A stretch of DNA of 64,000 nt from assembly GCA_921293015.1 (NCBI GenBank), contig OV121084.1, positions 18,852,960-18,916,959 on the forward strand, given 5' to 3'. The notes under the pieces were generated by a model. The model searched no databases. It saw only the letters and a list, made by a program, of their open reading frames with translations, and was not told the origin of the DNA. Of the stretch, positions 4,201-54,136 are shown in pieces (the first letter of the stretch is position 1; each line of letters begins with the position of its first letter). This DNA comes from Phorcus lineatus (taxonomy: Eukaryota > Mollusca > Gastropoda > Trochida > Trochidae). The position numbers and the translations under genes are program-made.

Positions 4201-4203
4201 GAT

Positions 4204-6169: not shown

Positions 6170-6201
6170 ATTTATTTCCAGAATGTTATAAAAGGAAGGC
6201 G
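6170..6201 (+). promoter_or_regulatory. Probable splice acceptor before the first coding exon
   Basis: A pyrimidine-rich TTTATTTCCAG ends at 6181, 20 nt before the first ATG. It suggests a 5' non-coding exon further upstream. TTATAAAAGG at 6187-6196 looks like a TATA box but is too close to the ATG to be the sole promoter, so a spliced leader exon is the better reading. Confidence 0.45.
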
Positions 6202-12114: not shown

Positions 12115-15100
12115 GTACAGACTATTTTACTGTACGAAGCATAAGGATCCACAAAAACATACATCCTTATAATCTATTAAGTAAGGGAAGTTGCTACTGT
12201 ACTGTGTGATGGTTGGTTAAATAACGAAAAAGGTGATATGGGTATAGAAACTTTTTCGTCAATGCTGGCTTTGTTCCTAATGAGGCGTGAGATCTTGTGG
12301 CTTAGGGGATGATGCAGGGAATTTTTTGTGATGGCTAAGGCTAGTTGAACGATGTTTAGAGTTTGTTGAATTGCTCCACAAGCCGTCACCTTTTCAAGTG
12401 ACAGGACCCTCAAACAGCTACTCAACGCAAAGAGGACGTATCACTGAAAGACCCAACCCAATGGGATGTATCTACAAAATCCCATGTCACTGTGTACAAC
12501 AGTACACTAGAGATGCGCTTCGTCTAATCAATAGAAAAGCATTAAAGAACCGTGCATGTCCTAAAGAACAAGGCCCACATCATGAACTGGAAGGAACCCT
12601 AGGTACAACCAGCCATCAACAACAACTGGCGCCAAAGGAACCTTTATGAAGCCATAGACATACGACGGGAACAACCTGCAGTAAACGTTTTGGGATCCTT
12701 TGCATGTCAGGGTTCAAGGTTTGAGTTGAGAAATAAGTGAGATGGTTCGGGTTTAACGAGTTTTGAACAATATTTCAGTTATTAAACGCGTGGATAACAA
12801 ACATCCGAAGGAGTTTAGGCAGATCAGCGAGAAAAGAAAGACGGAGGTGAAAGACGGAATGAAAGGCATAGCGAGAGATAGACAGCAGGTTTCAGAACAA
12901 CACAAATTTGGTCTGGCTTCTACCCGTCGACCTGTCCAGCTTGGGTAACCCTTACAGGAGCATGTGGGTTCTCGGGGTCTCTGAAGCACGCAAAACGCCA
13001 CACCACAATAGGGTATTAAGTCAAGTGGTGGAAGACAGTAGTGAGTGAGTGAATTGGGGTTTAACGTTCTTTCAACAATGTTTCAGTCCTTAAACACGTG
13101 GATGACAAGCATCCAAAAGAGAGTGGACAGATCAGGGAGAAAGGGATCGAAAAGATAAGGGAAAAGACGGAAAGAAAGGCATAGTGAGAGATAGAAAGTA
13201 GGTGGAAGACAGTGAAATTAATTCTTAACCGTGAACAACAGAGGCAACTTACTGGACAGCAACATAATCCTGACGATCTACTAATCATGGACAGACAAGA
13301 TGAGCAGCGTTGCCGAGATAGGGTTCGAGAGCGGGCGCGGGATAATGCTTTTCCAAATATTTAACCACTGAATATCAAACAAACAATATTTCAAAAGAGT
13401 CATCCAACAAGAAAAATTAAAATTAACAGATTTTGAACATTAAAAAAACGCTCTGCAATGAATACTATACACAAATTTAATTTGGGTCCACTGCGTCCAA
13501 GATCGGTCGTAATGTGAGTTTTTGATAAGTACCTGAATAAGTTGAAGGCAGTTATTGTTAACTGAATGTTTATGAAATTATGAATGCTCGAAAATGATGC
13601 CATATTTAATTCCCTTACGAATTGTTTTGACTTCAAGATTGTAGCCAGAATATACTTATTTTTATCTAAAATCCTTCATTGACAATTATCCCTTGCAAAA
13701 TCATGATAATTTTAATAGTGATTAAGAGTTCCATAGCTTTTCAATACATATGTTAACTTAAATCGAACAGCAATCCGGCTTTGGTTAATTAAGTAGCCGA
13801 TCAAAGGATTTATACCTTCATCGGTGCATTATCAGTTTCTTTTGACTCAACTGCTACTAACACATTCGAAATCAAATTTATGTAGCAGAAGTATGTGGGT
13901 TTTTTTAAATTTGGTGAAATGTCATTTACCCCTTAATGACTGGGTTTACTTTCTAGCTTATGATACAGACGTTGAAAAACATCAGTGCACCACTGTTTGT
14001 GGATCCAACGACAGAGAGTCAACATGAATTTACAGTTTATGCTGGCTCGACACTTACAATCATGCTTTGTGCCAAGCCTTTTGACATAGCCTCTCCGTGA
14101 GTACTATTATAAGGTCTTCAGACGAAAGTCAGAAGACCTACTGTTATTATCCTGATTATTTTTTCTTATTATTATTATTATTTTCCACGATTGTGTGGCT
14201 CAAATTGCTGTAAAACTACTAACGCAAATTCAACGAAACTTTCAGGCATGATAGCCTCTCGGCTGAAATTGATACAATTGAAATCCAATTTCCACTTCCG
14301 CCTTCCGTGGAGGAGTTACAGCCCCTTTAAATTTCGGAAATTAACATGGGCCAAATTTTCAAAATGCACTTAGAGATTTGCAACTAGCTTTAAAAGATGC
14401 GCATTAAAACTGAGAAGAAAAAAATAAATCGTGACAAAGTTGTAGGTCACGTGCTTTAGACGCCATCTTGCTTTTAGTGCATTTTTCAGCATTTTCGACC
14501 CTATGCGTCTTTGAAAATCTTCTCCTCTGAAGTTACTTGCACGAAAGAGCTGATCTTGTACATAACGCAGCTGATGCATTGTCCTATTCAGGATACTCAT
14601 CAGAACTGCGTAACCCAAATACATTTTTCACAGTGACCATTCGAAATTGTCAAAAACTGAAAAATCGCCAACATCAAGGGCACTGAACTCTAAAACTAAG
14701 GTCACGAATTGCATGATTTTTACAGGACGGCAAGACCTCATCTACAAGAATCGATAATAAAATCGAAGCGAAGAGTCATTTACGGTTTTTATTAAGGATC
14801 AAAAATGCACAATTTCAATTTTGAACAAATTAACATTGGGTCATTTCTAGAAATGAATCTAGAGACTTGCAAATAGATTCAAAAGATACGCATTTACATG
14901 AAGCCAAAAAAGTCAATCATGATGACTTCGTAGGTCACGTGCTTTGGCCGCCATTTTCCTTTTTTGTGTGACTTTGCAGTTTAAGGTTACCCTATTTCTT
15001 AGGCATTCAGTTTTTCCAATATAGGATTTTTACACTTTTATTTCAAATGTTTTGTCATTGTCAAATGTGAAAGACGAGCCTTCTAATAAATGGGGACATG

Positions 15101-18100
15101 TGCCACATCTTTTATATGAACATTTGAAAACTGAAGGTATTTCTGTTGGGTTTTGGATACCATCATATTTAGCCCTTGTTAAGATGTGTTTAAGATTTTT
15201 TGGCTGTCTTTTGCTTTTAATGATTTTATTTCTTCTCAACATGTGGCCTAACCTCTTGGCTTGACTATGCATAGGTAAGTTCCTATGTATAACTGGAAAT
15301 AATTCCGCATTGTTGTTATTATGTGTTGTCACGAAAGTGATTGTGTTTTGGTCCTCATTTATCTTATCTTTAGGAGTACGTAACTCTTCAAGAGTGAGTG
15401 CCTGTGCTTTACTTACTCCATCTTTGATAAGAGGTTCTGGATAGCCTCGCTGCAATAGCGACAACTTAGAGACCTGAGGCTTTCATTGCTAATTATGACA
15501 CAGACACGTCTAGCTAGACCATAGGGCAAGTTTGTTTTGACATGTCGATCATGTGCGCTTTTGAAATGGAGATATCGTTTTGTGTCTGTTGTCTTGTGGA
15601 AAATATCAGTTATGATGTGAGTATTATCCTTCTTGATAAGTATGTCTAAGAAAGGTAACTCTGTCTCGCTTGTTTCCATTGTGAATTTGATGTTGGGATG
15701 CATGTTTTGTAGAATGTCATATATTTGATATATATCCCCTTTAGATTTTTCCCAAAAAGTGAAACAATCATCTAGGTATCTTTTCCATTTAAAGATGAAT
15801 TCATTTGCAAAGTCCTTGTCAAATTTTTCCTCTATGGTAGTATAGAGATTTTCTTCGAGGTAGGCTAGTACTAAATTGGCATAGAGTGGCGCAAATTTTG
15901 TCCCCATTGCCGTACCTAGAATTTGGAGATATGAATTTTGATTGAATTGAAATGTGTTGTTTTCTAGAATAAATTCAGCTGACTTAAGGATGAAATCTTT
16001 GCTAAAACGTGGATAGATTGACTCAGGATGATTGTCAATCCAGAATTCTAGTGCAGTTTTGCCTAGATCATATGGGATATATCCGCTAAGAAAAAAGATG
16101 GTATAACAATGCGAGTGCGTTGAAATCGTAAAGAAAAACATATTTTGTCTTCCAATTGATAAATCAGATTAATTGAATCATGTAATAAAACAGAGTAAGG
16201 TCACGATCAGCTTTGTCTTTGTTGACAGAGATGTTGAATCTTTTCACGTGAGGTCTGTGCCTACCAAAGTCTTCACAGTTCCAGCTCCAAGGGCCAACAC
16301 ATCTCGCTCGGCCGAGAGAGTGAAATGCACAACAGTTACCTGGACATCGAGGACAGACGACGTAGGGAGATATGTGCTTAGTGCCCTTATCACCGACACA
16401 AGCGGGTACTGTTTATCTTTTTTTAATGTTTTTCTCCACACTTTATGAAGTAACCAACCAAAACAATTCTTGAGTGACAGGAATCTCAACCCGAAATGTC
16501 AGTATGTTTGGTCAGGTGCTGTTTTTTTCGAAAGGAATAAGAAATATAATAATTTTATAGGAAACATGAAATGTATTTGTAATTTTACAGAAGATACGAT
16601 ATCACAAAGCACTATGGTAATTGAAGAAGAAATCTGTAAAGGTACCGTTAAGTGGCAAATGTAGTTGGTGTTGAAGCAAGTAATTTACCATAAAAAATTA
16701 AACGGAAATTGTAAATAAAGACATTTACAATGAAGACAAGGTTATCGCTTTTGAATTCAGTCTCAAAATTTGTTAATGTTTTCATTTTCTACAAAATATA
16801 CGCTATTGATTGTTTCAGAGCTGATGGCGATGACCGAAACTACAAGGTGAACGTAAAATGTAAAGATCAAGTTATTGAGATGATATTTCTTTAACTGTAT
16901 GAGGTTAACATCTTCTTCTGAATTCCCTTAAAAATATCTTTTTAAGACAACCTTTTGGAAGAAGAAAAAAGTGGCCACCTTCACATTTTATGTTGTCTTT
17001 ATTTCAGCTTTGAACTTCAAGAAGTCTTCGGGCATTCACGGTGTAAGGAAGATACATTTGTTTTATTTAGTATAGTTGTTTCTGAAGTTATTACTTTTCA
17101 GGAAACATAACCACTCATACTCTTACCACATAAATTAATGTATAACGGGCATACTGTTTATATAGTTTAGACTACAAAAAAAGAAAATGATTATTTACTT
17201 ATTTTCTACAAATGCTCTTGTTCATGCTTCGCAAACGTTTCATAAAGGCATCCACTAATACCCCCATTCCACCGAGCTTACGACCTCAATGCGACGCAAA
17301 TGTCGTAATGTGGTCTCACTTGATCGCACCAAGCATCGCAACGGACGCCAGTCGATCGTAACTCGATGGCATGCTGATCGCAGAAACTGTAGCTGTGGTC
17401 TCAGCTTGGTCCTACTCACTCGCATGAATAATCGCCAATACGGTTGTGTGATTGTCTGGGGACCTACATACGATCTATCCGACCTGTCATAACAAACGCA
17501 ACTCTGTCTCAATATGCTCGCTACTAGAAGGATATGTGATCACTTTTTTGTCGCAGTGGAATCGTACAAGTAGTTTGGTGGAAAGGCAAACGCTAAATTG
17601 TTGAAAATTGGTCGCTAAAAAGTCTGCGATCGCTGCGATCAACGTGATCGCGGTGATCAGGGACAGTCGCTTATCGGTCGCGGTTTGGTGGAAGGGGGGC
17701 ATAATGGACAAACGATTCAATTGCAGACTGTCTAATATATAGAGAATCTCACCCTCGTGTCTTCTGATATCAAATATCAGTTGATTAAAGGTACATATAT
17801 CACACAGGTGTCAAGTTTTTCATGATGCCAGTCAATTGTCGACTGTAGCTTATGACATAGTATATCTCAACCATGACGTCGTTTACGTCAATACATAGCA
17901 TTGGTATTGATTCTATATTTGAATGTTTTTTATACACTAGGGAAACATGGTAAAGATCCCTGGATCTAAACCAGTTTCTATCTGCTCATAACTTCTTCGA
18001 AAATTATGCGACGTTATGAAATGTCAAAGGTCATTACCAACGTCATCAGACCCGGTTGACAAAGATCGTCTATAATGAATACAATTAAGTATAATATCCA

Positions 18101-21100
18101 AATATTTACAACGACGTGAACGTCGTTCAATGTACTGGCTGTTGAGGAAGTACATGAAAATATTCTGTATAAAGTCTGTGATAATTCCCCGAAAAAATAT
18201 GTCTCTATCACTCATTTACTGAAAGGGTGTAACAAAAGTGAGATCTATCTTTAGTTTGATTGGTGGTTAAATTGCCTTGTACTTGCACCTGGAAGGATGT
18301 GATGTCGCACGAAATGTTCATAATCGACTTGTAATGCACTGTCTGTCCATATGAGCATCCAAGTTAAGGGTGTAAAGCGTTTTCAAAATCTGTCGACTTG
18401 AATTTTACAATCAGTAGTAGGCAAAGTGGAAACGTCGCTAAATTCTTCATAAAGCAACACGCTACCAGTATACACATTGATGTGTTTGCCCTAAATTTCG
18501 AAACACAATATCTTTTTGCACATCACCGATTTCCTCAATCAAATTAATAACCTTTGTGTAGAGTGTGTCTGTAGCCCTGACATTTGTTCAACAATATCAG
18601 ATGCCAATAGCCAACCGTGCATCGATTGAAAAGTATACTGTCACAAATTTGTGAGTGTTATGGTAGTTCTGAAGTGGATTAAAACTGTTATTTTTGATTT
18701 CCAAGTCGTTTCAAATGAATAAAATTTGATTGGCGATAATTTCGTATTTTGATTAGTAATTGTTTTTATTTGCGCGTAAAATGCAAAATACATCCATATA
18801 ATTGGACGGCAGCACATTCATCTATTTATCGTCATTCACCATACGTTTGCTTATTTTAAATTAAAACACACCTTTTTAAAAATTGAATTTAAGCCGTGCG
18901 TTTCTTTTTGGTTTAGTATATTTTTATTTTATCAACGACTGTATTTGATAACAGAGAACACGTGGGCATATCTGTTTTATATGGATGTAAATCACTTTTT
19001 ACCATTTGATATCAAGACCACAAAAAATGTATATGAATCTTTTCATTTTAGAAAAAAACTGACCGTTATTCATCTTTTTCAGGGTGCTCCATATCTTGCG
19101 TTCTTTCCCGAAGCTTCATCCATTGTGTGTCTTCAAAATTCAACATGCTCTTTCCCGGTTTATTCAGCTGTCAAAACTAAAGGGTAGATCGATTTAACAC
19201 CATCTTTCCAGACGAATTACTCAAAACATATCTTCGCACGTCACCGCTGTTAAACTATTTTTGGCTTGAAACAGAGAATCTAGAGAAGTTGTTTCAAAGA
19301 AAGCTGTTTCAATCTGAGCACAATGTTCCCGTTATAGTCGAGATGATATTTGTTCTCAGACACAAATATAAGTCGACATTCGATAGTACAGACATCAGGA
19401 TGCGAGGGGACTGTGATTAACCTGTTCTGGCAAAGAATGTACTAAAACCATTGAAAATCAAGAATGTACCACTAACGTCTTAACTGTTGCCAAAAAAATT
19501 AAATCAAGAAAATATATATCATTATTTCTAGAGAGACGTATGGAATATAACCTTTAGTTTTAGCTTACTCATACATGACTCGTATTTGCCGAAAACATTG
19601 TCTATTTAGAAGAGACTCTCCTTAAACATGTATATTTTTTGTGAATTTTGGATAGTGGATGTAAATATCTTTAAATCTCTGATGATTTATGTAGATAGTA
19701 GTTTAAAGGAGTAAATCTTACTGAGTTTGTAATGTATTGTTTATAGTGTATAACTTTAAATCTAATAAAAACAATTTAACCTGTTACTGTCTAAAACAAC
19801 ATTCTATCCTCTATTTCTATTCAGCACGAATAATCACTATTTACCATAAACTGACCTGTTTTATGTGGAAATTGAAATTGCAAAATCTGAATTTCCCAAC
19901 CAAAAGCAGATGAATTATTCTCGCTATTAAGAGGATTTTCTCTTGTGTTTATAAGTAAACTTTACGTATCACAATATGCATAAGACTCAATTTATATTCC
20001 TTTACATTCAAATGTTGTTTTCTAAATACATTCAGTCAGAACACAAATTGTCCAAATGTATAAGGTCAATATGCTGAAATTCTGCTGTAAATATTGAGCA
20101 TCACATTGTATATATTCAACTTAACTGTTTGTTTATATTTATATGCTATACTGTTCCCGTTGGTTGTTGTGTATCAAGTTGACGGTGATAAAGGAAATAT
20201 AGAAAAATAAATACTGTGGAAGATGTAAATATAAATGGTAATAATTTTTCTGAATTTCATTTTTTAAAGACGTTCCATAACACAAGTACGTCAATCATCA
20301 CCAACATCACAAACGATCGACATTTCCTCACCAAAAGCTACATCGAAAAACGGCATTGATGTTTTCCTGACTGACATCAGTCTGGCATCATGCCTACCTG
20401 GGTCACAAAGATTGTGTCTTGAAGCAGTTGACGATTTACGGTAAGCCGTTATTATATATTTAAAATAAAATATGACCAAAGTTGTGGTAAATTGATAGTG
20501 GACGTGGTAAATACAGAAAATGTTTAATATCAACTTTAAATAAAGATTTTAGTTACTAATTATGGTAACTGTATTACGAAAGCGTATCAATGTCACGTTG
20601 AAAATGAACATCTGTCAACTGACTCCTACGTGGAAGAACGTATCTCCAATGCAGATTTTTCTATCTTCTCCGTAGGAGATGATATGTGTCAAGCCATGGT
20701 CACTTTCATGCTATTTCATTGTGAAAATGTTCTACTAAGGCTATACTGAGTTTCAATATAGGAGATACTCAATCCTACGTAGGAGATAGTATTTTCTCCG
20801 TAGGGTTATATAGATTTTGCTAAAGGGACACTTAGTAGTTGTTTACACATTTTAGTCTTCATTTTTCAGGGCAGCTTCGGAAGTCGAATGCCTTAACATC
20901 ACGGTGGAATATCGAGGTCGTTATTTGCTTTATAAAAGTAGTTGATATCAATTCATGCACACTATTAAAAAGATGATAGATACACGTGTGATCCACAAAT
21001 AAATTTAAATCTAAAATATTTGAAAGAAAAAAGTTATTACAGAAGATGTTAATACTTTATGGAGAAATTTAGATAGGTTTTCTGTATTCATTAGATTCCT

Positions 21101-24100
21101 GCAAATCGGCTCCATGTTTGAACGGTGGAAGATGCATTCAAGACAAGGGCTCTTTCATCTGTACTTGTCCTATTACACACTCTGGTGTATTGTGCGAATT
21201 AGGTATGTCATGTATCAGAAATAGAACACATCCACATAAGATTAAGAAAATAGCATTCTATGAATAACCGTAATTAAAAGTAGAAATGAGTTAACTTTTA
21301 GTTTACGATTTTGGAAAGTGCATTATTCTCCATGTTTTGTATAACGTAAATCCGTTGCGAAAAGAAGTACGTATGTGGGAAAAGGTCTCCAAAATTAACA
21401 AATCGAGGAATTATTACGAACTTACGAAGCGACCCAATTAAAAAAATTATCATTTAGATGTAAGGACCTACCTGGATTCCGGAAGTCTGTTTTCCAGTAT
21501 GTTAGTGCAAGTATCATGTTATCTAAATTTCATAAGGACTTCAGTACAGCAAGTTTTCGGACTTTAACAAAATGATATAGAAATACAAATCGTGTTTTTA
21601 TTTTTTGAATTTGTAATTACATCGGTTTAGTAAATAGTTAACGTTTTCTTACAATTTTTAAGAATTATTTATACAAAGAAAAATTAGAGCTTCGTCGATT
21701 TAACGAGCTGCAAAAACATTACGTTTTAATTCGAGGTAAATGCGGGACAGTCAATTGTCAATAGTGAAATGATGTCACTACTATGCTACCAAACTTAAAA
21801 AATATAATTATATTTCACTGCCATCTTACCATAAGGGTTAAGGGTTAAGGCCCATGCCCTAGGCGACGGCAGTATGCAGTCACTGTCAACCGTTTTTTTC
21901 GATTGATCGTTGTTTATCATTTGATTAACCATTTTGGAACCAAGCATTGTTGTAAAATAACGGGGTTTTTTTTTTAAATGATGACGATTGCAAACTATAA
22001 AATACGCGCGGTTTTGGCCCTTTAAAGATGACCCTAACCTTTTTCAATAATTACAAACGCATTACCCAGTACTAGCAGAGAGAATGCATCCTGCTACATC
22101 AGCGATTTGTATCCGTAGAGATCCTACACCACCCTGATGTCTATCACGTAAAAGTCTCGTATTGGTGACGGCTAATGAATCATTAATAACATGTTTAGCA
22201 TAAAAAAAATTTCATCCAATGAAATGTCGTTATAAGAGCAACTTAAATATCTTAAATTCCGCGGTCTGAGATACGACGCATGTGGCTGATATGACAGGAT
22301 GAATAGAATACGCATATGGCTAACTCGATGAAAAGAACATATAGCATTATGGTTGAAATATAACGAAACATTTGATTTGATACAACGATAGTGTTTATAA
22401 TTTTCTTTTCAAATGAACATGAGAATAAGAATGTTTGAATGTTTTAACCATATCTGTGGGAAAAAAACATCTGAAGTAAGAAGTGCCAATGTGGTTGTTT
22501 CTTTCAGAAATTGATTACTGTGGAAGTGAACCATGCTTAAATGGAGGAAGTTGTTATGCCTTTAGTCCTCCATATATCTGTGCATGTGCAGCTGGTTATA
22601 CGGGCAGGAACTGCGAGATGAGTAAGTTCAAGATCACGTCAATAACAAAGTACCTTTAAACACAAATCATGTTCAGACTTAAATATCGACTCGGACAAAT
22701 TGGTAGCACACATTTGATCGACAAACAATTACATTTTGTAATAATGGTAGTATATGATTTCTTAACATTAGCTTATGTTGATCATATGATTTCATAAGAG
22801 TTTAAAGTTGTAAAGTATAGTAAAAAGAATTTTAATGAGATAATATTCAATATGTATCATATTGTCATATTACATATGTAATATGTAATTTGTACACATG
22901 TCATTTGTTTACATTTCCTATGAATAAAACGTTTGAGAACTGAAAAAGATTATTGTTAATTAATATACATGAAATACATCATGCGTCATACAGACAATCA
23001 TCAGCTGTCGAATCATGTTAAGTTTAATTCACAATCTTAATTTACAAATAACTCACTGACCATGATGGAACAACTGTCAAGCTTTAAGACACAAGTAAAC
23101 GGTGTCTTATTTTCAAGATGTCCCATATGCTTCTCAAAAGAATTGTTCAAAAATGTTGTAGATATCGCTATTTTAATTCTCGATTTTTATCCTTGATATA
23201 CAGGTTTACCTTGTACTAATGGATCATGTCTCAACAACGGCGTATGTCTGAATAAGAAGTGTATTTGCGATTTCGGGCACGAGGGAAGCCGATGCGAAAA
23301 AGGTACAGCTTATGGTTAACCCTCTGAATGAATTCACAATACATTGACTGTATCAACGCTCTCTCGGATATTCGTGGAATACCGTAATCAATGATTAAGT
23401 TCGAACGAAAGATGACGAGTTTGACACCAAATCCTTCATGTGTTTAATGAACAAAGTTTTCGTGCACCTTGGAGGAGAGGCGCAGTGCTAGATTAGACAT
23501 CTTTAAAAGCTTGAATGAAGTTCATATCTCTATATAAGGTAATATTAGTCCATATCTCAAGGCATAACTCGCTCAAGTGTCATTAAGTGGCTAAAATAAG
23601 CCTTGCAAGATTTCCCCAACTTCTGTTTCTACTGCGGTATATTTTGATAGCCTCTTCATAAACATTATGAAACTTGTCGCCAAAGCAGATGCTTTGCTTA
23701 AACCGTGTCTTATATCTTGCAGGGGGCGGTTTACTTTGTCATTTTTTCAGATAAAAATTTTCCCGGCCTTTATTTTGGGGCTAAATTCTATGTTTCTTCT
23801 GAAATTAATTTTCAATTAAATCCATTCGATCTGAATAGAAACATCTGATTTTGGAGGTATGAACCGCTCTGCGTTATGGGAGGTCATCGGGGGGTTCACT
23901 TGTTTGCTTGTTTTGTATGAGTTGGCTAACCTTATGAATCAGACTTTACATAAAGCTCGGTGTATATGTTGAAATGGTTTCATAGCGTGATAAAAAGAAA
24001 TCCTACATTACGTGATTTGTTTACTACAGATCGCCTCCTTTGGAACACGGTGAGTTGATGTTTCTATTTCACAAATCATATACAATTAAGTATATCGATT

Positions 24101-27100
24101 ATATTATTGAATGCTAAACTTATCATGATCTCATTTTTAAATGAAGACTTATTGTCAATGAGATAAAGGGATAAATGATTGCATTAGTAAACCTTATGGG
24201 TTGAGCATTTATCAGGGATTCTCAGCCCAAAGTTCGAAACACTAATACTTGATTTACATGTATAATATAATTTAATGCAAACGGTACTATAAGTTATCTT
24301 CTGCATGTACAGCGGCAACATACCTAAGGCAAGTGAAACAGTTTCAACAATGTCAGTATAATATTGAGAGATGAATGGATGGATTTTATTAATATTTAAG
24401 ATAATCAAACTATTTCTTGATAACAGTATTCTAAGAGGCTGCAGTAAGAAAAAAGGTAAGCCTGAGTAAAACTGAATCCGAATGATTAAATGGTTGTCTT
24501 CATTTAAAATATTTTCTGGGATGCAAAAAATCAAGGTTCAAATCTTTTTCAGAGCGGATTAGTATCCCCATCACTGAAAAATGGAGCGCTTTTGCAGTGT
24601 CAAGTAAATAAGAAATGTGTGATTCCTATATATATCGTAGGATCTAGGTGAGTATGACTACTAAGATAACTAATTCTACATTTACACATAATAAACACTC
24701 TGGAGAGTATATATTTGAGAGCAGCAGTTAATAGTAATATTTATTGATAACAAATTCTTTATCATAAACGACGTCTAAACGAATCTGATTAGAATCGACC
24801 GTGTTCCTATGAATGAAAGTTTTAAAATATTGACTTTATGGAGATTCGAACTCGTTCTGTCTAGGTCTTTCTTCAGAAAGGTGAAATTCATAAGAACAGC
24901 AACGTGTTCTCGATAACAAATTATTTAATGTGAAAATCACGACGTTTCGGATATATTTTGTATTGATTGTATTGTTCTGAGATGCACAGAAAACGAGTTT
25001 GTATTATGTAGGGTTTAAATGCTCATCTAGGTATCAAAAACTTCATTTGGTGAATTGAAAACATAGTTCTTAAAATGAGTTTACACAATGTAGTACACAT
25101 TTCCAAACTGCCTGTCGAAATTGTACAAGCCTAATCTTACAAAAGTTTGGCAACCTGGTGATATGTGTAAGTCGTTGTCCAGAAATATGTGTTTCAAATG
25201 GATTTCACTTTAAAATTGATTGAAATACATTTAATTCATTCCCGAAAAACAATTAGCACACTAAAAAAGCCCTTTCCCTCTCTTCATCCTTCAAAGAATT
25301 CAACTTTCAACATGTTTCAGTCTTATATTTCATCCAAAGTTACGATTTTTGCTGCTGGTAAAATATTATAACAGACTAACTCAACTTCATTCAAATTTGA
25401 TTTAAACCATGCTGTTATATTTGCAGTGGGTCAAATAGTATAACTATTGGACCAAAAAGTCTTAACGTGAATGTAACCATTGTCGATCCGACACTCAACA
25501 CAACAGTTCCTGGTGTTAAACAAGGGAGTATTGAACTTGTAGCAAAGTCTACGGGACCACAGCGGATCTGCGTGAAAAGTCCACTTAAAAGTCACGAGTA
25601 AATGTTTAATTATATTTTGTATATTATTCTTTCCAACTGATATTACTGCCTAATCCTTTTATTAAAAGATCTGTTTTTCATACACACAAGTTTAAATGAA
25701 GCATGAACATTAACATTTGCAAAATATTATGACAATTGCTTGAAACAAATAGGTTATGCCAATAGGTTATCTAAATCTTGCAGTGTCTGTAATACTGGAG
25801 TTGAATTGTCTTATTTTTACTACAGACTGAAGACGGTGTGTTACCATCTCCAGATTTCAAATGGTATGTTAAGGAAAATTTGTGAAGATGCATGTTTACA
25901 TAGTGAGCCATGTATGCGTAACTGAGAATTCGAGAAATGAAATAATAACCATAATATTCGTCTAACCCCTATTAAATCAACGATATTAGGAGAGGTTGTG
26001 AAAATTTGCTTCATTTTGAAAATGCCATTAAGGTATTTATTGTGAAGAGGTCATTTGAGGACAGAACTATTCAATTTAACCATTCATACTCTCAATGTGT
26101 AATACAACTCAACAATCAATTCCCCGATCGCTTTCTCCATCACGTAAATATGATATGATATGATCTTAATTCATGTCTCGATATAAAGCTGTCATTATTG
26201 GATTATTGTTATCCTGTTTATCACATGCTCATCTATAGAAGACTATGAATATTATAAACACGTTTTTTTCGTCTTATAAATTAAAAGATATTCCAAATGC
26301 CTTAACCAAGACTCATTTAATTCAAATCAATGTCTCTATTACAGCACGGGAAATAAGGGTACGTAATACCTTATTTTATAGCATTTTATTGTATACAAGG
26401 ACGCAATTTTCTATTTTCTCAAGGTCATGGCAATGAAAGTTTTCTTTATCGTTTTAGTGAAACAACTATTGGTTGAAATTGGATGATAAATCACGATATG
26501 CTATATATCGAATGTTTAAAACCTTACTCAAAATGTTTGTTGCATTTAACTTAAAGAGGCTTAGGCTTAGACCGTGAAACTTAATGATTAATGAGGGAAG
26601 TCGTTCGGGAGAAACGATAATAATAACCTATTATGTAAAAATGGTATCGAAGACGAAATACACTTTTTTATTTGTTCTTAACCAAACGACAATTTGTGGA
26701 AACAGTACACCCGAGATTGTTATCTTTTAAAGGCTCCTAATAACTTTTAATCAAATTCTTTCTTCTGATAATAATGCTTGCATTCTTAAGCTTTCACAGT
26801 ATGTTACCTGTGCCATTCCTCATTAACGATAAATACTTTATAATTGAAATATTGAACTCCAATATATACTGGCCTGATGCCTTACTTACATATGTACAAT
26901 AACCGATTTTTACTCCGACATGATATGTTAACCATTTTTAAGGTTATTTATGTTCAACCCCCTTAGATAATGATGTAAAGGCTAATAAACCAGGCTAACT
27001 ATTATCTAGTTTGTGCTTCACATCTAGACCCTAGACAAATTCTTGGAACCAACACCAACCCCTGGCAGCTTCATTCCCTGTAAAGACTCGTGTCGTCTTC

Positions 27101-36100: not shown

Positions 36101-39100
36101 GAAAAAGAACAGAAGATATTGAGAAGAATATTGGTTTACATGTGTTCAAATCACTTTGACGCACTAATGAATGATTGTATTAACTTATATACAGTTTTGC
36201 TTTGACATAGTGATAGGTCTGCACTTCCTTCTAGGAAAATGTTATGATTAACTGCAATTCCTACTAATGTACAAATGCGCTCAATAGGTGACAAGAATTT
36301 TAATCTCTGTTGTTTATACAACGGACATTCAAAGAAATAATGATATGAGTTCTCAACAATATTACCACATACACAACCAGGATCAGTTTTAATCCCAAAT
36401 CTATACAAATCAAAGTTCAAACTACTAACTGAATACCGCAACTTGGTATGAATTCTATTAGGATTTATTTTACCGTACTAGTAGTACATATGTGCATGTG
36501 CCCCCAAGTTGGATATTGATGATTTAAACGCAGAAATATTTTGCGAGTTACGAACGTTGGTAAGTAAGTTATTCCAAGAACTTATTGTGGATGGGAAAAA
36601 AGATTCTTTTGAATGTTTAAGTTTAGAGAAAGGAATTGATATATTGTGCGAGCTGCGTAAATTATAATTTGATTTAGAACCCACGTTCATGGGAAGTAAT
36701 TCGTTCAAGTTTCATTTTGAGAGAGATCTATTCGATGTATATTTCGGTAAACAAGTCACTATTCTCGCTGCTTGATTAACCATTTTTACCCCATATATTT
36801 AGTTTACATAAACTGGAATTCAAGTTAATTTCAATGAGTCTATTGTCAGTTGAGGAATATCCAAGAGACGAATCATCAGCAAATAGACGCGTTAAGCAGT
36901 CTAATTCATCATAATGTCATTAATGAATACAGTGAATAGGAAAGGGCCCAGCACTGGCCTCTGTGGGACACCAGCACTTAGAGTTCTCAGCTTTGAAAAA
37001 GATCCATTGACAAATACACTCTGACTGCGATTTGTTATATAACTACTTAACCAACCCAATAACTGTCCGCTTATTCCATAATTTTCAAGTTATGATAATG
37101 AGTATACAATGAGGTTTAGCTAAATTAAATGGGGAAAAGAGGACCAAATCACAGAGAATTTATCAAAGTGACAACATGACTACTCAAGAGTTACTTAACA
37201 TGAAAAAGTATATATCATTTAACAAATCTTTAAAAACCTTTCCTTTATCCAGAATTGCTTCAATCCCTTGGCGTAGATGAGACAAGGGTGAGTATTAATA
37301 CAATTGTATACGAGACACATATCGAGAGTTTTATAAATGAACTTCTAACTATTACTTGCTATATATCATCTCTACTCATTATCCGTCCGCGGGAGATGCT
37401 GCATTTTTTAAATATTTGATATACAATATAAAACAGTATTCCACTTGTGTTATTGTATGATATCATAACGGTTTAAATGGTTGATTCAGAATGCCAGTGG
37501 TGACATAAACATGATATGCGTCTATTTCAACTTATTGTTGGTGAAAATGTTGTTTAGCATAAAGTTGTTCGATGCCAATTTTGAACAATGATGTTATACA
37601 GGGGATCATATTGTGTGTATTATATCAACACTTAACGGTGTGTATAGGTAATATTTCTTATGTGGTCAAGATTTCAGGGACGCCGAGTAATTCATTCCAC
37701 ATTTTATAAGCATACCTGTTTTACCTTTATTTCTTTTACTTTGTTACTCATTTAGTATAGAAATAATTAGTTAGATAAAACCGAAGTTCTTATGATCATT
37801 TTCGTTATCATAACCTGCTGTTCCAGCCACATATCATCGAACCGACCATTTCTAACGGGTCCTTCCTAGAATGTGAACATGGGCAGACATGTACCCTTCC
37901 TGTAACAGCATTTTCAGGATCAGAAAGGTGATCATATGTACAATATTTAATATCTGCAATTCCTATGTTTTATCAAAGTGAATATGATATATTCTGATAT
38001 ACTTGTCAATGATATGAGATGTTTTGCATACGTTATAAAGGTGAGGCAAACCATCAATATTGCTGCCTGGTCCACAAATCAATATCATTAACAGCCTGGG
38101 GGGATGTTTGAATATGATTCTCTCTCTTTGCATTGTAACGTCATCAGCAACCTAGAGTGGAACTTGTGCGTTTTCGTCGCAAAACAAAATGTTGTAGATG
38201 CGTGTAACTGTAAATATTCTTCCAAAACATGAAAATAATCAAATGTGGTACTGAATGTTAAGTATTATGAATGACGCTGTAAGAAACACTTTTTCTTACA
38301 AACTTGGCTCTTTGAAAGCACATTTGTAAATTAGCAAAACTTAGTATCATGTAACCATATTAATGACATGACATTATTAATGAAATTTTTTAGCTTTAGA
38401 ACAGTTGATGATAGAATGTTACAACATGTAGCTATTTACATCATACTTCATCATACTTCATGTCAGCCTTCGACACATATCAGCCCTCGGGTATGATATG
38501 AAATGTGATGTTTCATATCTTTGTCTGCAGAACCTGTCATGAACATATCCTATTCCTCCGACTTTATTACTATAAAACGTTTTTCCCATAAGTTGTTATA
38601 GTTCATGTTCAATAAACTACAAGTTCAATTGGAACAAGTTCTAAGTCTATAAAAGATTGCATCTTACTTTCAAGAATGGTGTTGACAATGTGTTTTAATC
38701 TCCGCATTGTTGCAGGCTTTATCGCCTCGCCCTTCCCAGGATCAGTCATAAAGTAACAAGTAGTAATGAATTCTGAAAACATTGGTTACAATTATCTGTA
38801 TCCCTACAGTCGACTTAAAATGTTGATTGTAACGGCACCCTGGATTGTTTTCTCTTGATTTATTGATACGTATAGTCATACCATGAATATTCTAATGTTC
38901 CAAAAATTACCCGTGATTAAATTTATTTTGATTATATTTGTTTACTACTCCAGAGATAAATATTAACATATACACAAATCCACATTTGGCTCCTTCACTT
39001 CATTTTGCTAACAAAACAAGACTATCTACCTAGTAATAAATGTAAAGTTGACCAATATCGAAAAAACATTTCTTCTGTTGCAGTTGACTAAAAACCTAAC

Positions 39101-42100
39101 CTTGATCAATCGTAGTAACGTACAATTTCCGTTTTAAGGTATTTCAAATTTGGTTTAAAACCATAAATGCTGCATCCGTATTTACACTGTTTGACTAATA
39201 AAATGATTGCATTTATAGGATTATTGTTTTTACCCTTTTAAGAACTTTTTTATTATCTTTTCAGTCCTCTACAACAAGTGTTAATAGATGGAAAACCAGA
39301 CCCTCATTTAAGCCTTCTTTCTGGCGCGCCTAAGGGAGAAAAACTCAAGATGAATATAGTCCTTCCTAATCCTAAAGGAAAGGAAAAACATTGCATTTCC
39401 TTGAAATCTCATGATGGGTATACTCTTGATATTTTCTTTCTAATAATAGATAATATCTATTCTTAAAGATAGTTAAACAACTTTTCATCTAATGTTAAAT
39501 TCTCGAACTACGAAGGATGGTAATTTACTCCATAAGGAAACACAGCACATTTATATCTCTTATACTAAAAGCTTTCACTGCCGTCTCTGTACATATCCGA
39601 TAACTCTGTCTGTCACTTGATGTCCATTTTTGTAAGATAATGCTGTAAAATCTGCAAAGGGCTTTTGGATAACTTGTACACAGTCAATTTCTAGTATAAA
39701 TAAACTATGATTCAATCAATCAAAATCTTATGATCGATTTCAATGTTTATAGAAAAATCAGCAGTCCTTGGTGTTTCGTGACCAATAAAGTAGCATGTAA
39801 GTAACAGGAATCCATCATCGTCACCATTGTATTGAGTAAACAAATTAAATTCAAGAGCAGTGACGAAATACTTGTAGAGATAACATGAGAATAACAACAA
39901 TCAGAATATCATCATAGTATGCATCTTCCTACGCAAAGCTTAACTATTGCCAGTCTCGAACTGTCCAAGTTAACCCTTGCTGCCGAGATAAGACTTTCCT
40001 GTGCTAGCTCTCTAGCTCACTGCAAAGGAATTAGATAGTCCAATCAGAAAGCTCCTAGCAAAAGCTACATCCGGGGACTCGAACAAACATGGCTGCGCCC
40101 ATGTCGCAGTCCGTCGACTGAAAGATTTGTAAAGAGAAAGTGCAGCCTCCAAAGTGATGAACAATATATTCAAGTTCATTTATGTTTATAGTCAATTTGC
40201 GTCATTATTTTTCTACAACCCTATAGCGGACAGCGGCCTGTCAAAGAATTTATTCTTAAATTGCTTGGGTAAACTAATCAAGCTCGATAAAATTGACCAT
40301 GATTTGAAGCACCGACTCGATGCACTACGCCCGGCAAGACTTTATTAATTGTTTTATCTTTTGTGCTTGCAAAAACTTTATTGAATACCCGTTGAACCGA
40401 AACATTGATTAAATTTTACATAAATTAACCGATAAAATTTGAACATCTCGCGATGTCATAACACTCGAAATGTAGTAGCCTGCGACCTCGTTGTATCGCG
40501 GTAGTAAACGTTACTCTCAACAAACTTTACTTCTTGCAGTCAAAAACCAGGTATGTTGACGTGTACCATTTAAATATCATGTCGTCAATAAAAAAAAAAT
40601 TTTAAAAGTAAAACAATTGCTATATTTACTTCCATTTTCACTGATTTCACAGGGTCATTTTCATTTTTGAAAATATTACTTTGGTACTTGGTATGTGCTT
40701 TGATATAAAAATTATTCTCTGTCCGTGAAATATTTCCCGTTTGGCTTGTACGTGTGTTTGTGAACAGTTGGATAATAAAAAATGAGACTTGTGCACATGA
40801 TAAAGATAGACAATTGTTATGTTCTTGATATAGTGTCAAAGCTTACCAACTAAAAAGGTGTGCCCGGTAAAACTAAGACAAGTTAAGTCCATTTTTGTAG
40901 TAATTGTACTAGAATATTTTTCGTAGTTTTGCAAATGCTTTTATCTAATCTTAATATCAACTAAAATTAAATTAAATTTATTGTAATGATAATATTACTT
41001 TGTTTCGCTCACAGATATTAATTTATCAATTAAATCATAATTGCCCTGAAAATAGGGCACCTCTATTAATATACATTGCATAGACAATATATACTATTCA
41101 TTGTATGTCTAAAAATATTTTCTTCCCTATAAATTTGATTTTCACATATTTTCCAGGATAATTTTTCAGCTATTTAAAAATAAACAATGTGTAAACTGTA
41201 CTTATTTGATGATAAAATACAATTATATATTGGTAACGACCACGATAAATGGGCCTACATACTTCCCTTTGAAAAATATAAAGGGCGCAGTCATATGTTA
41301 TTTTTTTTACCAAAACCGGTCCTAATAACAACAAAAACATCTTTTCCGTCCATCAATACATTTATAAACTGAATCTTCTTGTTTGAAAGGTTTGCAATGC
41401 CAACTTCTTTATAACCTGATCAAACAGGTCACTTTCAATGGGCGCGGCCATTTTGATTATATCGCAAATGACACGGCGTCGCCGATTGGCCATAGTAAGG
41501 GAGGTAACTGGAGATAACTAAAACTCGCCAGTGTGGGCGCTGGTATCAAGCCAGAAAAGTCTTATCTCGGCAGCAAGGGTTAACTTGGACAGTTCGAGAC
41601 TGGCAATAGTTAAGCTTTGCGTAGGAAGATGCATAGTATGAATAATAAACAATTTGAACCCCGAACAGTTTCACACTATCAAACTTTCAAAAGGTCCTAA
41701 AACTAAATGAGAATTAATTGCATGACAGTTATTTGAACTCTGTGAAGAAACTTGGATTGCTCAAAAGACTTGCCATTTCTGTTTCAGTTAAACCAGGCGT
41801 CAAGGTACGTCTATTGTTTCTTATCAGTTTGGAATCGTGGTTTTATGAATTGCTAAAAGTCCCAATAGAAAGACATACGCTATTGCTTAGATAGAAATAA
41901 TTCTTGTAAGAAAACGAGGTTTTGTTTACCTAGAAAAACATTTAAATCCTTTTATCATCCGTTTATTTACATCAACTTCATAAGAATGTACAAATGTGCA
42001 AGTAATATCCATGAAAGTAATTTTTATTACAGAGTGGTATCAGCTCCGAATCTTTACCCGGCGGTTCCGTCATACCGTGTGTTGCTGGTGAAACGTGTAC

Positions 42101-45100
42101 TATTCCCATTGTTACTGATGGAAGTGTACAGTAAGTCCATATAACAATTTGGCATTTCCACAAAATCATTAATTAGATTTCAATACAATTTGCATTAATA
42201 ATTTAATTACTTCTTCAAACATATGTATTTTGAAAAATAAACCTTTATCTGGAACCATGTTAAATTTCTTAAACATGTAATCAAAAGTATTGACTTAAAC
42301 GTTAGCATTGTAACATTTTCATTAACTTTCCTTTATATACTTAAGATCTTGAGTTTGCTATTAGAATCTCCACCAAAGATTAAGACATTTGATAATATTT
42401 TGTTCGCCCATTTCAGGATAACAGTTGACAGTTCTGAACTATCTAGCATCATAACAACAAATCCAACTGAACCAAAGATAAGGGATATTGTTGTGAAAAC
42501 TGATATCAAGGATCTAGGCCCAAAAAACGTCTGTATTGATACGTAAGTTCACATCCAAATAATATCATACCTTACACTGACGTTCTATGAATTAAAAACA
42601 CAACAGATTTAGATTGCATTTTGCATCGATAAATGTTATTTATTTATAAACTTAGTTTTCCATAACATCATGATTATAATTACATATTTTCTATTTCAAG
42701 TTACATAGGGAGAAAGGGAAGTCTTTTCTTTGGTTTCAGTGAACCAAGAAGTGAGAAGAAGTGCTATGTGATACGCGTTGACCGACCTCCAGGTAGCGAC
42801 AGTCGTTGATTCCAGAGTTATATTGGGCAAATTATTTTCATTGCTTCCATTTTTAATGGGCAGTAGCAAGACGTTTTAACATGGATTTCGTAAAAGAGAA
42901 CATAATAACAACATATGCACATTGTCTTATATTAAAGATAGAGAGAATGAGGTAACAATATTATGCTACAACTTTCCAACAAATAGTTATGATGATATCC
43001 CTTTTGACCAAAGCCTACATGTATACCGTCTTACATGATGATAGAACCAGATGTTTCTGTTATAGCAGTCAGTAAGTTCTTGATTACGTCAAATCATTAT
43101 TATTCATTGAACTTTTTTAACAGATCAACTTGGATCGGCTGTTACCCTTACAAAGGTAGGTTGATACGATCCTAATTTAAACATGAACGTTTGATATGTA
43201 GAGATAATTGGTAGATTATAGAAGTTATTTCTCCAAAGAATATATATAATAATTATTTCATTTTATCATGACGAAAACACAATCCATTTGCAGCCAACGA
43301 TAATCGGTCCCTTTGAGAAGAACGGAACAACAATTCAGTGTCCTGGTACAGAATGCAACCTCAAAATGATAATGAGGACACCACCTGGATTAGATGGGTA
43401 ATATAAATAATATTTCAAAACCCTGTGTATACGTCTTCATTTTGTTGTCTAAGATAACATTTTACCCTTTTCATATGCCTTCGGCAAACTACAGGTATAT
43501 GTCATCCAACCCGTGTTCAACTTGGGATAATGCTTAAGATTTAAATGACTTCGAGTTCTTCACTTTCACTAAAGAAAATCTAAAAAGTCATCAAGTAAAA
43601 GGATTTCTTTGCTTTAACACTTGTCATGTTGTTGTGTTGTACTGTTAATACGATTTCTGATTTTTATGGTGAGATTGTCAAGGCGTGTCGTCTAAAGACT
43701 GTCATGGCTGTGGTGAAAATAATATTGTATGGCAGTATCACATATCTTTCAAAAAGAAGACTTTCAAATTCATGTTCATTGTAAGGTTCTTCTTTATATG
43801 AATTATATGAAATCGTCTGTGTAATTCACCATGATATCAGAGCATTGTCTTTCTAGAGTCATAACACATGTTGCAACCCTTCCTGGAACATCAGGATCAG
43901 TGCAACTTGTTGATAACCAGACTGCAACCGGAACGAATCTCCATAATCTGAACATTAAAGTGAAGCCGGATCTTTCAGGACCTGATCTGCAAACCATTTG
44001 TATTGACTTTCACTCTTCATCTGGGTACTGTTTTCCTACTAAATAGTTTACAGGATAAATATAAAATAACACAAATACTATAATCGATAAAAAAAATACC
44101 AAACATAAACCGATGGGATATCCTTGAAATTATAACCAGCATGATTAATAATTGAAATGATAATGAGTTTCCATTGCACTGGTTCAGGATTGCGACATAC
44201 TTTGATTTCAGGAAGGCCAGTGATCCATGGTGTGTGAATGTTGATAGAAAACCTCCAGGTAATCTTTCCATTAAGAGTAGGTATCCTGCCATGCGTAGGT
44301 ATACATGTCACATATTGATATCGCTTTATCGACGCATACATGCTCTTGATTATTCTATAATGAAATGTCACAACCTTTCCCGTCTTAAACACTTAGAAAT
44401 ATGCCAGGTACGTTTGTTATGAACTTACGAATGAAGATAGTGAAGATATATGGATGAATGGATGAAGAGGATGTTAGGACCATGAAGCTTTATTTGTTGT
44501 GAAAGCAAATTTTTTCAGGGGTAAATTGACAGTAGCGCTGTTACCTTGATATAGCGCCACATCAATAATCAATATGTATTATCAACAAGGCTCGCAGCTC
44601 CTTAGTTTCGTAATAAAAAGTTTGTACCTTGATGAAGGTGTTAGTACTTAAATGTGCATATATCATTGTCTACTAAAATGTGTTTTACAGTGTGTGCGTC
44701 TGGAACCATAATATATACAATAATCTACTACACATGGACGGTTCAGAAAAACAATATTGTTGAAGTAGTTTACCAGTAACCTACTTTTACACCTTATTTA
44801 CACAAGTCATAATCAGGGATATTCATTTAACCTAATTTTGAGAAATAAAACAAAGTAATAGTAAAGTTATAAAATGGACTGGTACAGGTGTTGCAATCGA
44901 ATGAGTAAAATTTCAGTATTGAAACAAGAGTGGTTTTCAACTTTCATTTGGCCTGTATCCATACATCATTTTAAAGGTAAAGTAAAAGTAGAGCAACATG
45001 TAAATCGTTTTAAGTGTAATTTCTTTCTTTTGAAGGTAACCAGGAAAAGGTAATAGTCCCATGTTCCCTGGGATCGACGTGCTTTATTCCCATCGCAACA

Positions 45101-48100
45101 AAAAGGTAATTTGACACAAATGTATTATAACTATGAATGTGAAATCCAAACTCTTTTGATCATTGTGACAAAACGTTCTATCGCAGTTGTCACCAATTCC
45201 TGTGAGAAAATGTTGGTTTATTGCTGTTTGGCACGTCTGGTATGAAATGAATTTTACAAGACCAATTATCGGTATTATTGAAAGTGTAAGTTTAAGGTTT
45301 AGTTTCAAACGATTACCAGTTGCCACAAATACTACAACCTGTCGTTCAAGACATAACGTTGTACATAATGTCGGTACAAAATATATAAATTGAAATAAAT
45401 TATAGGTGATTTTACTATGAGGGTAATGCCATAAAGTAGGTCATGTATACATTAACTTTTACATTTATCTTCAAACTCGATGTTGTGTACCAAATTTTAT
45501 GCATATGAATATTTTTGTCTACTTCTCAATGATGAATGAAGGTTTTGTGCATTTAAGCAAAACTGTTTGGAAAGGTAACAATTTCTCTTCTTGCTACTCG
45601 GGTCCATTAGTCGTCATAATCTATGCGTTTGCCTCTACACCATCGCTATTATTGAACTATTTATAAATGTACATGTACATGGAAGATGAATTCATAGCAA
45701 TGGCTTTTAAACTTTACTAACTCATCATCTCCATTATCGTCAAAGCGATTTATGTCATTGCCCAAAGCGTACTTCAGCGTTATAAAATTTAAAAACCATA
45801 TTTTTCACTTATAATATTTTGCAAAATCCCAAAATGAGTTTGATACATGCCAACTTCTAGTTTCATTCCACAGCCCTCTTCTTATGCCTAAAACTGACGA
45901 GACGACGGTGCAAGGGTCCATGCTATCCCCTGATGGTAAGACAGTGGAGCACATTGTAGCATACAAACCCTCCGGATCAGCGACAGGATTAAAGAATGTT
46001 TGTTTAACAGAGCAAACCTCAATCATGAGCAGGTAAATCTTAACATATGTCCGTTAATGTACGCTTTGTAAGTTGAACGATTTTGGGATGAATTTCACTT
46101 TTATTCCCGAAATTAAAATTAGAAAAGATACATATTTTCAAAACATTTTCAATTATATTAGGCCAAATATGTACACAATGAACACCCTTATTTATAATAA
46201 AATGCTAGGAACTTTAATAAAACTGACAATATTTTGAAAAGTTATCACGTTCCCTTTGAAAGAAATTTTATATCGTTAACGTCTAAACACACCTCAATTC
46301 ACTGATCAAAACGTAAACTTTGTATTGCATTTTATGACATATATTTGCATGTATGTTCATGTAGCTCATATACTGCAGCGTGAGTTAAATGTACAGTATT
46401 GATCGGAAGATTTTTTCTTTGTTCATTATTTTTGTTCAAATAAGATCTCATTAAAATTAATTGATTTAGCAGGAATGATATATTCTTTTCTTTGAAATTA
46501 TATTTGATTTTAACATTAGGAGAACATAACTGATTTTGAAATGAAAAAAGGTATGAAAGATTAATTTTCTGTTTAAAGTGACATTACAATGAGCATATTT
46601 TGAGTGAATTAAATTCACGGATATTTATTAAAGGGTCATCTTAACGATGAAATGAATTCCACATTAGAAAATAAGATTTTAATAATAATTTTGTTAAAAG
46701 CATACGTTTATGACAATGGTATAGGCATTATGAGACAGACAGTAGATTTCTGATTGATTCGGGCAATTGTTTCAGTTTACAAAAGAGTAAAACTAGATAG
46801 ACATAGCATTCTTTAAGCACTAAGAACGTATTAACCTTCCTTAAAAAACTATGAATATATTTCTGAGGTATTTGAACCCTTTACTAGGTTTCTATGACTA
46901 TCATTTTTTTTCAGTGGTAGAGACAAATGTATACTGATAGATGTAATTCCAGAAGGTAGGAAATCATTTTAAAATAATCATGACTCAAAGATTGTTCGGA
47001 CATACTTTTCATGTTATAATATTATATGAAATGGGTGAAAGTAAAAATTTAGTACATTTTGATTGTGCATTTACGATTTGAATATTCATGTATACAAAAA
47101 GTAACTTTATACTTTTCGATGGTTTCTTTAATGTGATATCTGAATTATGAATACATTGAATGATACATTTTCTTTTTCTCTAGTTTCCACTGCTCCAGTA
47201 ATAACGCTGCCTCATCCTACAGGTACGAAAAGTAGTAAAGCGTTGTCAGAAACGTACAAAGCAGGATGTATGCTAATTATTTTGATGTGATTTAAAGTAA
47301 ATATTTGTGATTTGTTGTTGAATTGCCGAGGAAGACATGTTCGCACTTTTTTGACGGAATGGCAATATTTTATATGGCAACATATTTTGTTTCTTAAGCC
47401 CCAGAACAACAGCTACCACAGTGTAGGAAACCGAGTGAGTTCTTCATTTACATATATATCAATATTTATAATAATAATTATCATTATAATAATAAATCAA
47501 TGAGATACTAATTTCAAATAGGAAAGTATGCAGTTTAATTGTTTTTGTGTTTTTTTAACAAGATTTTAAACAACTGATGCTTTCTTCATTTTTCTATTTA
47601 CAGCCAAAACAATGATGGTAGGTACTGATATGTTTTAATTTGATTTGTACGTTTAATTCATAATGGAAACGCGCTTCTATATTTTTTGGGATTCAATAAT
47701 TGATGATTTTATGGAAATGTTTTTATTTTTCTGTGAAACATTGTAAACGATAGAATAAGCATTTGTCTCTGAGAGAGTACATGAACGTTTAGTGTTTACC
47801 TTTTCATGGTACAGGTATCAGTGTTGTGAACCTATTAATGAATCAGTTCTTCCAATAGGAAATGTTCGAATTGAAATTGAAAAATTTTCTACACAATAAG
47901 TTTTGAAAAACTTGCGTCAAGTGTGTAATGAATCTGGTTTTGGTCTATGATAGTTAACTTTGTCATAACTTAAACACGGGTACGGTTTTTATCCATTACC
48001 ATTATTTTATACAGGAATCAGCAAACGAGGCAGGAAAATTACAATGCGCATGCGTGGATGCTAAAAGCCAATCAACGACGATAGTTATACGACCTAGGAC

Positions 48101-52108: not shown

Positions 52109-52250
52109 CTGAATCATAAATTTGTAAAGTGAATGGTGCATCACAGTTCGTTGACAAACTTCACACTGTGCCGAATTTCAAAAACCGAATTTGGTAATGT
52201 GCGATGCGATGTCGAGGAACGAAGACAACAGGGCCATTTGTGAAACCATT

Positions 52251-53395: not shown

Positions 53396-54136
53396 GCGAG
53401 TGGTGGACCTGTTTTTTTCTCGCCAAGCAATTGGATAACTGTTATCAGTGCAGTTTGCCACTAAGGTAAGTTATTCAGACTGATAGAAAAATCTTTCAGC
53501 CGTGTAAGATACACTGAAACTAATAGAAGCTGACTGAATCCACTGTATGATATGTAGATTTCTTCCTTAGTATATTTCATACTTTTAAAAATATCAGGAT
53601 GTGTTATAGGGCAAAAAAGAATTAGTGTACTAGAGTATCACTTTATTTCACTTCACCACACAGAACATTTTGTTCAAATTATTTAAAATGGTAATTAAAA
53701 ATCAAAACTAATATATATAAATATACTGAATAAATGCCAATAACTTTTTTACATTATTATGAAATACTTAGATATTAGATATAAATTGGGCATGATATTT
53801 GTTTTACACTCATTTTTACTCATTTGTTCAATATAAAATTGTAAATTAGAATATGTGTGATTGGTTAATAATTTCATTTAGTGCTTTACACTAAATATAT
53901 TTATCAAAGCCATTGCACCTTTCACTTACCTCATTCTTATTTTCCATTTCTGGTACCCTTGCTTTGTTGCGCTGCGCGCAATCGACCCGGGGAACCGAGC
54001 TTTTCTTCCGCGCTTGCTACGTCACTTAGTTACCAATGACGTCACTTTTATTCATCCAACGGCTTCCTGCTTCATTCGCTCACTTTCTGCCGCCGCGCAA
54101 ACATCTTTTCAATCTATTTAGATCTATCATCTAAAT

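Follow-up and report, generated by a model that had tools for sequence, protein, structure and literature searches.

A putative membrane protein gene of the gastropod Phorcus lineatus with repeated, uncatalogued and probably mainly-beta modules between EGF exons

The window analysed here, i.e. the whole stretch of 64,000 nucleotides from the Phorcus lineatus contig OV121084.1 (C7 in the following; C7:18852960-18916959), carries on its forward strand what we on balance believe to be one gene for a type I single-pass membrane protein with repeated, uncatalogued beta modules and a probable role in adhesion or recognition. The predicted frame (6202-48266, + strand) joins 53 exons into 1710 residues without internal stops and encodes, in order: a signal peptide (called from hydropathy and inspection), five N-terminal exons, ten modules (M1 to M10) with six EGF exons between some of them, and a transmembrane tail. 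An original prediction, made from the letters of the stretch, had placed ten sets of exons A, B and C between 13957 and 46955 and had attributed them to a single gene of 54 exons. All ten sets were recovered and the attribution to one gene was supported: the reading frame stays open from the signal peptide through to the transmembrane tail, and the first, N-terminal, module, EGF and tail exons all have homologous counterparts in an upstream relative, gene X. The exon count was lowered to 53, with M10 lacking a separate mini-exon L, since its first exon begins in phase 1, as it does in X: L and A of M10 are a single exon in both X and the window gene. A doubtful mini-exon (44281-44294) was dropped. 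Exons were called by a motif scan followed by the enumeration of candidate exons with splice sites; flanks of 109 kb upstream and 60 kb downstream were examined along with the window, and the genome searched comprised 957.8 Mb in 74 contigs. The start codon at 6202 and the leading hydrophobic segment could be placed because X, the window gene and a downstream homologue (gene Z) share their N-terminal exon series. The features of the model are as follows.

6202-6324, + strand: E1, start codon, predicted signal peptide and first N-terminal residues (GGAISFKF); homologous first exons in X, Z and locus L022
6670-6986, + strand: E2 (phases 0-2), N-terminal region (CGSGC..DVG; WEQEVAE)
8833-8985, + strand: E3 (2-2), RSDTGQPNNSPV; acceptor set by comparison with the homologues X and Z (not top-scoring)
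9511-9643, + strand: E4 (2-0)
11944-12114, + strand: E5 (0-0), DGFKDGGWGAIAV; both ends picked by homology to X
13957-14096 (A1), 16229-16405 (B1), 16819-16859 (C1), + strand: M1, cysteine-poor
17008-17042, + strand: L1, opens unit 2
19083-19183 (A), 20270-20440 (B), 20870-20916 (C), + strand: M2
21095-21202, 22508-22621, 23204-23302, + strand: EGF exons 1-3 (all 1-1), PF00008 above cut-off
24030-24049 (L), 24553-24647 (A), 25427-25597 (B), 25826-25863 (C), + strand: M3 unit
26345-26358 (L), 27028-27131 (A), 27517-27657 (B), 27763-27812 (C), + strand: M4 unit, six-cysteine type
28227-28334, 28468-28578, + strand: EGF exons 4-5 (1-1), PF00008
28723-28745 (L), 28894-28991 (A), 29432-29608 (B), 30083-30129 (C), + strand: M5 unit
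30329-30342 (L), 31001-31107 (A), 32790-32945 (B), 33577-33617 (C), + strand: M6 unit, six-cysteine type
34652-34756, + strand: EGF exon 6 (1-1), PF00008 score alone just under cut-off
37253-37287 (L), 37827-37927 (A), 39265-39417 (B), 39753-39796 (C), + strand: M7 unit
41788-41804 (L), 42033-42130 (A), 42417-42542 (B), 42740-42792 (C), + strand: M8 unit
43124-43155 (L), 43294-43397 (A), 43857-44024 (B), 44212-44258 (C), + strand: M9 unit
45036-45105 (fused L+A, 1-2), 45874-46032 (B), 46915-46955 (C), + strand: M10 unit
47184-47222, 47405-47434, 47604-47617, 48015-48266, + strand: C-terminal exons T1-T4, predicted transmembrane segment, basic tail, stop

The exon lengths matched the ranges that had been claimed (A 70-140, B 126-177, C 38-53 and L 14-35 nt), and the claimed phases (A 0-2, B 2-2, C 2-1, L 1-0) were found throughout except in M10, the first exon of which is 1-2. 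The repeating unit, which had been taken as A-B-C-L (class 0-0), is better read as L-A-B-C (class 1-1): these modelled units are flanked by phase-1 introns on both sides and have a length divisible by three in 9/9 cases (90-118 residues), as is expected of a class 1-1 extracellular module. Since the exons had been selected partly with the motif and phases of the original prediction, extra controls were run. With only the frame and the exon core fixed and the top-scoring acceptor and donor taken (random expectation ~1/3), the planned phase was obtained at acceptor and donor, respectively, for 8/10 and 9/10 A exons, 8/10 and 9/10 B exons, 8/10 and 7/10 C exons and 6/6 and 6/6 EGF exons; one of the two A acceptor exceptions is A10, whose true start lies in phase 1. 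The six EGF exons, all 1-1, sit in C|L introns (three after M2, two after M4 and one after M6). Bounded by phase-1 introns, the L-A-B-C unit can therefore undergo duplication and alternate with EGF exons, or with a mucin exon in one relative, with the reading frame preserved.

Nine of the ten modules proved to be mutually homologous. In leave-one-out profile tests (2000 shuffles per left-out module) M2-M10 scored 17.6-41.5 bits, values reached by 0/2000 shuffles each, and M1 scored 1.2 bits, a value reached by 374/2000 shuffles. Among 11,326 open segments the left-out A exons ranked 9-23, with the eight training exons and upstream homologues competing too, and the left-out B exons 13-612; as single B exons are weak alone, the homology rests on whole modules. 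M1 was thus rejected as an equal tenth copy and kept as a distant relative on account of its phases and of a profile-profile comparison, in which a profile of six M1 sequences aligned with a profile of 20 modules (hhalign) over 100 columns, end to end (E=3.8e-4 in one comparison, probability 36%), with a score reached by 0/200 column shuffles. In the window model M1 has the same A-B-C-L phases as the other modules, and X agrees for A and B (its C and L exons of M1 were read by eye from the sequence). M1 closes the conserved N-terminal region, as it does in X, Z and two further loci, and its first exon was also found in a third. The claim of nine modules and a divergent tenth therefore stood for the nine, the tenth appearing to be only a distant, cysteine-poor relative that ends the N-terminal region; M1 perhaps represents the form from which the modules arose.

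The modules were compared in an alignment (A4) of 20 members, 11 of them from other loci and some chosen by their cysteine motif; gene X modules without a complete A+B+C set, the L019 module (B at 1672) and the L021 modules with B at 1764 (lacking A) and with A at 8718 (lacking C) were left out of it. The four cysteines of the originally claimed two-disulphide pattern were invariant in 20/20 of these modules, the choice of which had been guided by the motif. An extra, third cysteine pair occurs in 8/20 (M4, M6 and 6/11 from other loci), with one cysteine at the A|B junction and one within a C-[VITAM]-T-[DEK] motif, and the six- and four-cysteine subtypes alternate across M3-M6 in the window. 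The copies are thus not equivalent, and they are partly position-specific between genes. When the exons of X were matched against those of the window gene, 5/9 A exons matched best at the corresponding place (A1, A2, A3 by one point, A7 and A8) and 4/9 elsewhere, and of seven B exons B1, B2 and B10 corresponded, with the other four matching another position, weakly or ambiguously; the first module of Z matches M2, and so does that of L022, by its A exon. The averaged hydrophobicity displayed about six amphipathic segments of strand-type periodicity (no shuffle control), in agreement with the small beta-sandwich with two disulphides that had been suggested. From this we infer a fold of about six strands and two disulphides, the pairing being putative. 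The outer part of the protein would then consist of the N-terminal region ending in M1, followed by nine mainly-beta modules of ~100 residues with four cysteines each, with EGF domains between some of them, and the modules probably form a rod of disulphide-stabilised domains that displays binding surfaces outside the cell, in adhesion or recognition at the cell surface.

The claim that the module is not a named domain held in all searches performed. Pfam scans of the ten window modules, further pieces, the 20 A4 members and six M1 sequences gave no match above cut-off, and the cut-off of CUB or any other Pfam domain was reached by no module or M1 scanned, nor by the N-terminal region. The Ig, FN3, cadherin, PKD and HYR models were unlisted for modules and M1 even below cut-off, where the HMMER filters drop most weak matches. 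PDB profile searches (two module profiles, M1 and the N-terminal part) retrieved no related chains and listed only a designed helical repeat (E=0.23) and an oxidoreductase (E=1). The EGF exons did reach their model (PF00008, cut-off 21.5) in two of three pieces: EGF1-3 with 53 bits and EGF4-5 with 34 bits, EGF6 alone scoring 19.2. Unlike the EGF-like domain, which is encoded by six class 1-1 exons of the window gene, the repeated module differs in the spacing of its cysteines, is spread over three to four exons and is without EGF match. A motif scan for VWD, EGF, Sushi, TIL, HYR, AMOP and NIDO over 233 kb gave nothing usable besides the EGF exons, and the VWD match that a VWDE-type protein should give was absent from the three + strand frames of window 1-20000 and from the assembled N-terminus. 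A literature search, partly aimed at bivalves and molluscs and with limited reach into the subscription literature, so that prior publication is possible, did not find the module described. Overall, the module appears to be an uncatalogued domain within a known kind of protein.

We give an even chance to the reading that the module is a divergent offshoot of the known cadherin/PKD/Ig-like beta-sandwich superfamily, with M1 less derived, i.e. a new family with a known fold. M1 bears a W-x-P...D-V-G-x-Y...D-x-x-G pattern of the kind present in such domains, the modules align with it from end to end, and IC[VIL] and C[YF]x[IV] lie in their last two strand-like segments. Also in favour, the single near-significant Pfam match of the N-terminal region of X, located outside M1, is to PapD_N, an Ig-like fold (E=0.0013, 19.1 bits, cut-off 23). 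Set against this, the resemblance is a putative one and the models of the superfamily remained unlisted. Membership in PapD_N was itself rejected, the match being below cut-off and present in one of three proteins (X; not Y or Z).

The window gene belongs to a large and partly clustered gene family that is not confined to the locus. It has one homologue on either side: gene X lies upstream and is read in the same direction, and gene Z lies downstream and runs the opposite way. X, which is not fully assembled, carries a tail homologous to that of the window gene (47% identity, E=2.7e-14), and Z shares the N-terminal exons, M1 and M2 with the window gene. Three minus-strand EGF exons at window 50590-52160 fit gene Z, which continues to about 75300, downstream of the window; Z may be truncated or secreted, as a tail exon of its own was not found between 47 and 51 kb. 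A genome query with M3-M6, on which the module places rest, recovered 24 places. Of these, 10 belong to the window gene; the remaining 14, 6 of them with E<0.01, lie on C7 (18.44-18.60 and 26.81 Mb) and C12 (14.19 Mb), with weak ones on C32 and C5. The N-terminal query gave 112 matches, 23 of which cover exon E2, the window exon among them (X, Y and Z included; 22 at E<0.01). These candidate genes comprise 18 on C7, where they form several clusters, 3 on C32 and a single one on each of C12 and C39. Tail matches number 7 in the genome, the window gene's own included, and module exons of the same phase class occur in neighbouring and distant loci, in searches that had imposed the phases. A search of viral contigs that used just the alignment of E2 exons gave 16 pattern matches, none of which encodes a relative.

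The relative on C12 was compared in most detail. Exon length is identical in 7/10 exons compared (EGF1, EGF2, EGF3, B3, A6, B6 and EGF6), and DNA matches to window 21000-38000 comprise exons plus at most about 20 flanking bases, with the exception of one Thr-rich repeat. Nonsynonymous (dN) and synonymous (dS) divergence were 0.15 and 1.21 for the EGF exons (ratio 0.13) and 0.52 and 0.95 for six module exons (ratio 0.55, a value that pools M3 pairs, which are perhaps not orthologous); the proportion of nonsynonymous differences (pN) was below that of synonymous ones (pS) in 9/10 exon pairs, with pN = pS in A3 alone. In this comparison conservation lies on the exons and goes with a synonymous excess. 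In the C12 relative EGF6 is followed by a frame of 1192 codons rich in Thr, Ser and Pro (85% of residues), with short repeats, and then by a tail exon, and the corresponding place in the window gene holds a shorter frame.

L018 6900-9000, continuing into L025: Thr/Ser/Pro-rich frame of the C12 relative, between EGF exon and tail exon
34887-35353, + strand: Thr/Ser-rich open frame of the window, at the place of the C12 mucin exon; outside the 53 exons

By its layout, with splicing predicted, the C12 relative resembles the membrane mucins with EGF domains (MUC3/12/17 type): it combines EGF exons with a long Thr/Ser/Pro-rich frame, and its tail exon resembles the one in the window gene. It differs in that a SEA or VWD Pfam match was absent from the stretches scanned, and the window gene may be without a mucin part. 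The frame at 34887-35353 has weak donors only (the best in-frame donor into L6 scores 0.1) and its use is uncertain for want of a good in-frame donor to L6; a donor at 35270 was rejected, since joining it to L6 gives a stop. Here this frame seems to be short or to have decayed in part.

The clustering, the copy number and the faster change of modules than of EGF exons would fit a recognition role, and a glycocalyx or matrix role would fit too. A protein that is instead a structural part of mucus, glycocalyx or shell/extracellular matrix is a reading we consider rather unlikely; it is favoured by the long Thr/Ser/Pro-rich frame of the C12 relative, which precedes its tail exon, and by the tandem EGF-containing shell-matrix genes of molluscs reported in PMC4759782, and it is opposed by the window gene itself, which has at most one short Thr-rich exon of doubtful use.

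Several points weigh against the membrane protein reading that we prefer, besides the pooled M3 pairs and A3 mentioned above. The tail contains the top hydropathy window of the whole protein (19 residues near residue 1667), with a mean of 1.59, at the edge of the usual range of membrane helices, and inspection of the tail found no signalling motif. The gene model, and with it expression and membrane insertion, is a prediction from the genomic sequence; several modelled splice sites are not the top-scoring ones (the C6 donor is fourth of four, the B9 and EGF5 acceptors third), and the ends of E3 and E5 were set by homology. The weak splice sites, the purely genomic model and the retroelement-like frames in introns could also indicate leftovers of several genes or of a decaying array in place of one expressed protein, which we hold to be very improbable in view of the 1710 codons over 53 exons without internal stop, the homologues of first and tail exons in gene X and the synonymous excess with respect to the C12 paralogue.

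That the module is a GOLD domain as in p24/TMED proteins (PF01105) is about as improbable: GOLD was the sole family to match more than one module (3/20 at E<=10, best E=0.023, none above cut-off as listed), the module is alike in size, probable beta character and a cysteine near a late strand, and its third cysteine aligns with the second GOLD cysteine in the profile alignment, but the two bit scores listed (13.1 for M3 and 13.9 for a shorter L020 module) are far under the cut-off of 25.9 and the comparison with a profile of four TMED sequences (E=0.074; an equal or better score came up in 2 of 200 column shuffles and an equal or better E in 3) is near chance, upon which membership was rejected.

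The module can further be compared with class 1-1 shuffled extracellular domains. According to a review (PMC8001218), the multidomain proteins of animals were assembled by shuffling a few dozen kinds of domain, every one of them belonging to class 1-1. Like these, the module lies between phase-1 introns, has a length that is a multiple of three, is mixed with EGF domains and is probably extracellular and mainly beta; unlike them it contains introns of phases 0 and 2 and has no Pfam match above cut-off and no PDB chain related by sequence. One more class 1-1 module, without a Pfam or PDB match here and sharing its phase-1 introns with EGF and mucin exons, would enlarge that set, and it would tie together a family with the N-terminal exon E2 at 23 places in one genome. 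More tentatively, and with somewhat less confidence than an even chance, we suggest that this class 1-1 domain and the uncatalogued N-terminal region define a family of membrane-anchored proteins that is clustered and diverges fast, with some two dozen members or more in this genome, a few of them perhaps with giant mucin exons, and that would constitute a variable repertoire for cell-surface recognition or adhesion. The 20-module profile and the exon plan yield direct predictions for transcripts, for structure and for searches in other animals.

Mobile element traces were also observed in the window. Retroelement-like reverse transcriptase frames lie on the minus strand at 15030-16168, in the A1-B1 intron, and may belong to a Penelope-like element. 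On the plus strand at 54122-57659, inside the span of gene Z, overlapping gag-like, reverse transcriptase/RNase H and tyrosine recombinase frames were found, which resemble a DIRS-type element. Copies of one dispersed repeat lie at approximately 12757-13400, 52770-53330, 58280-58550 and 61806-62200.

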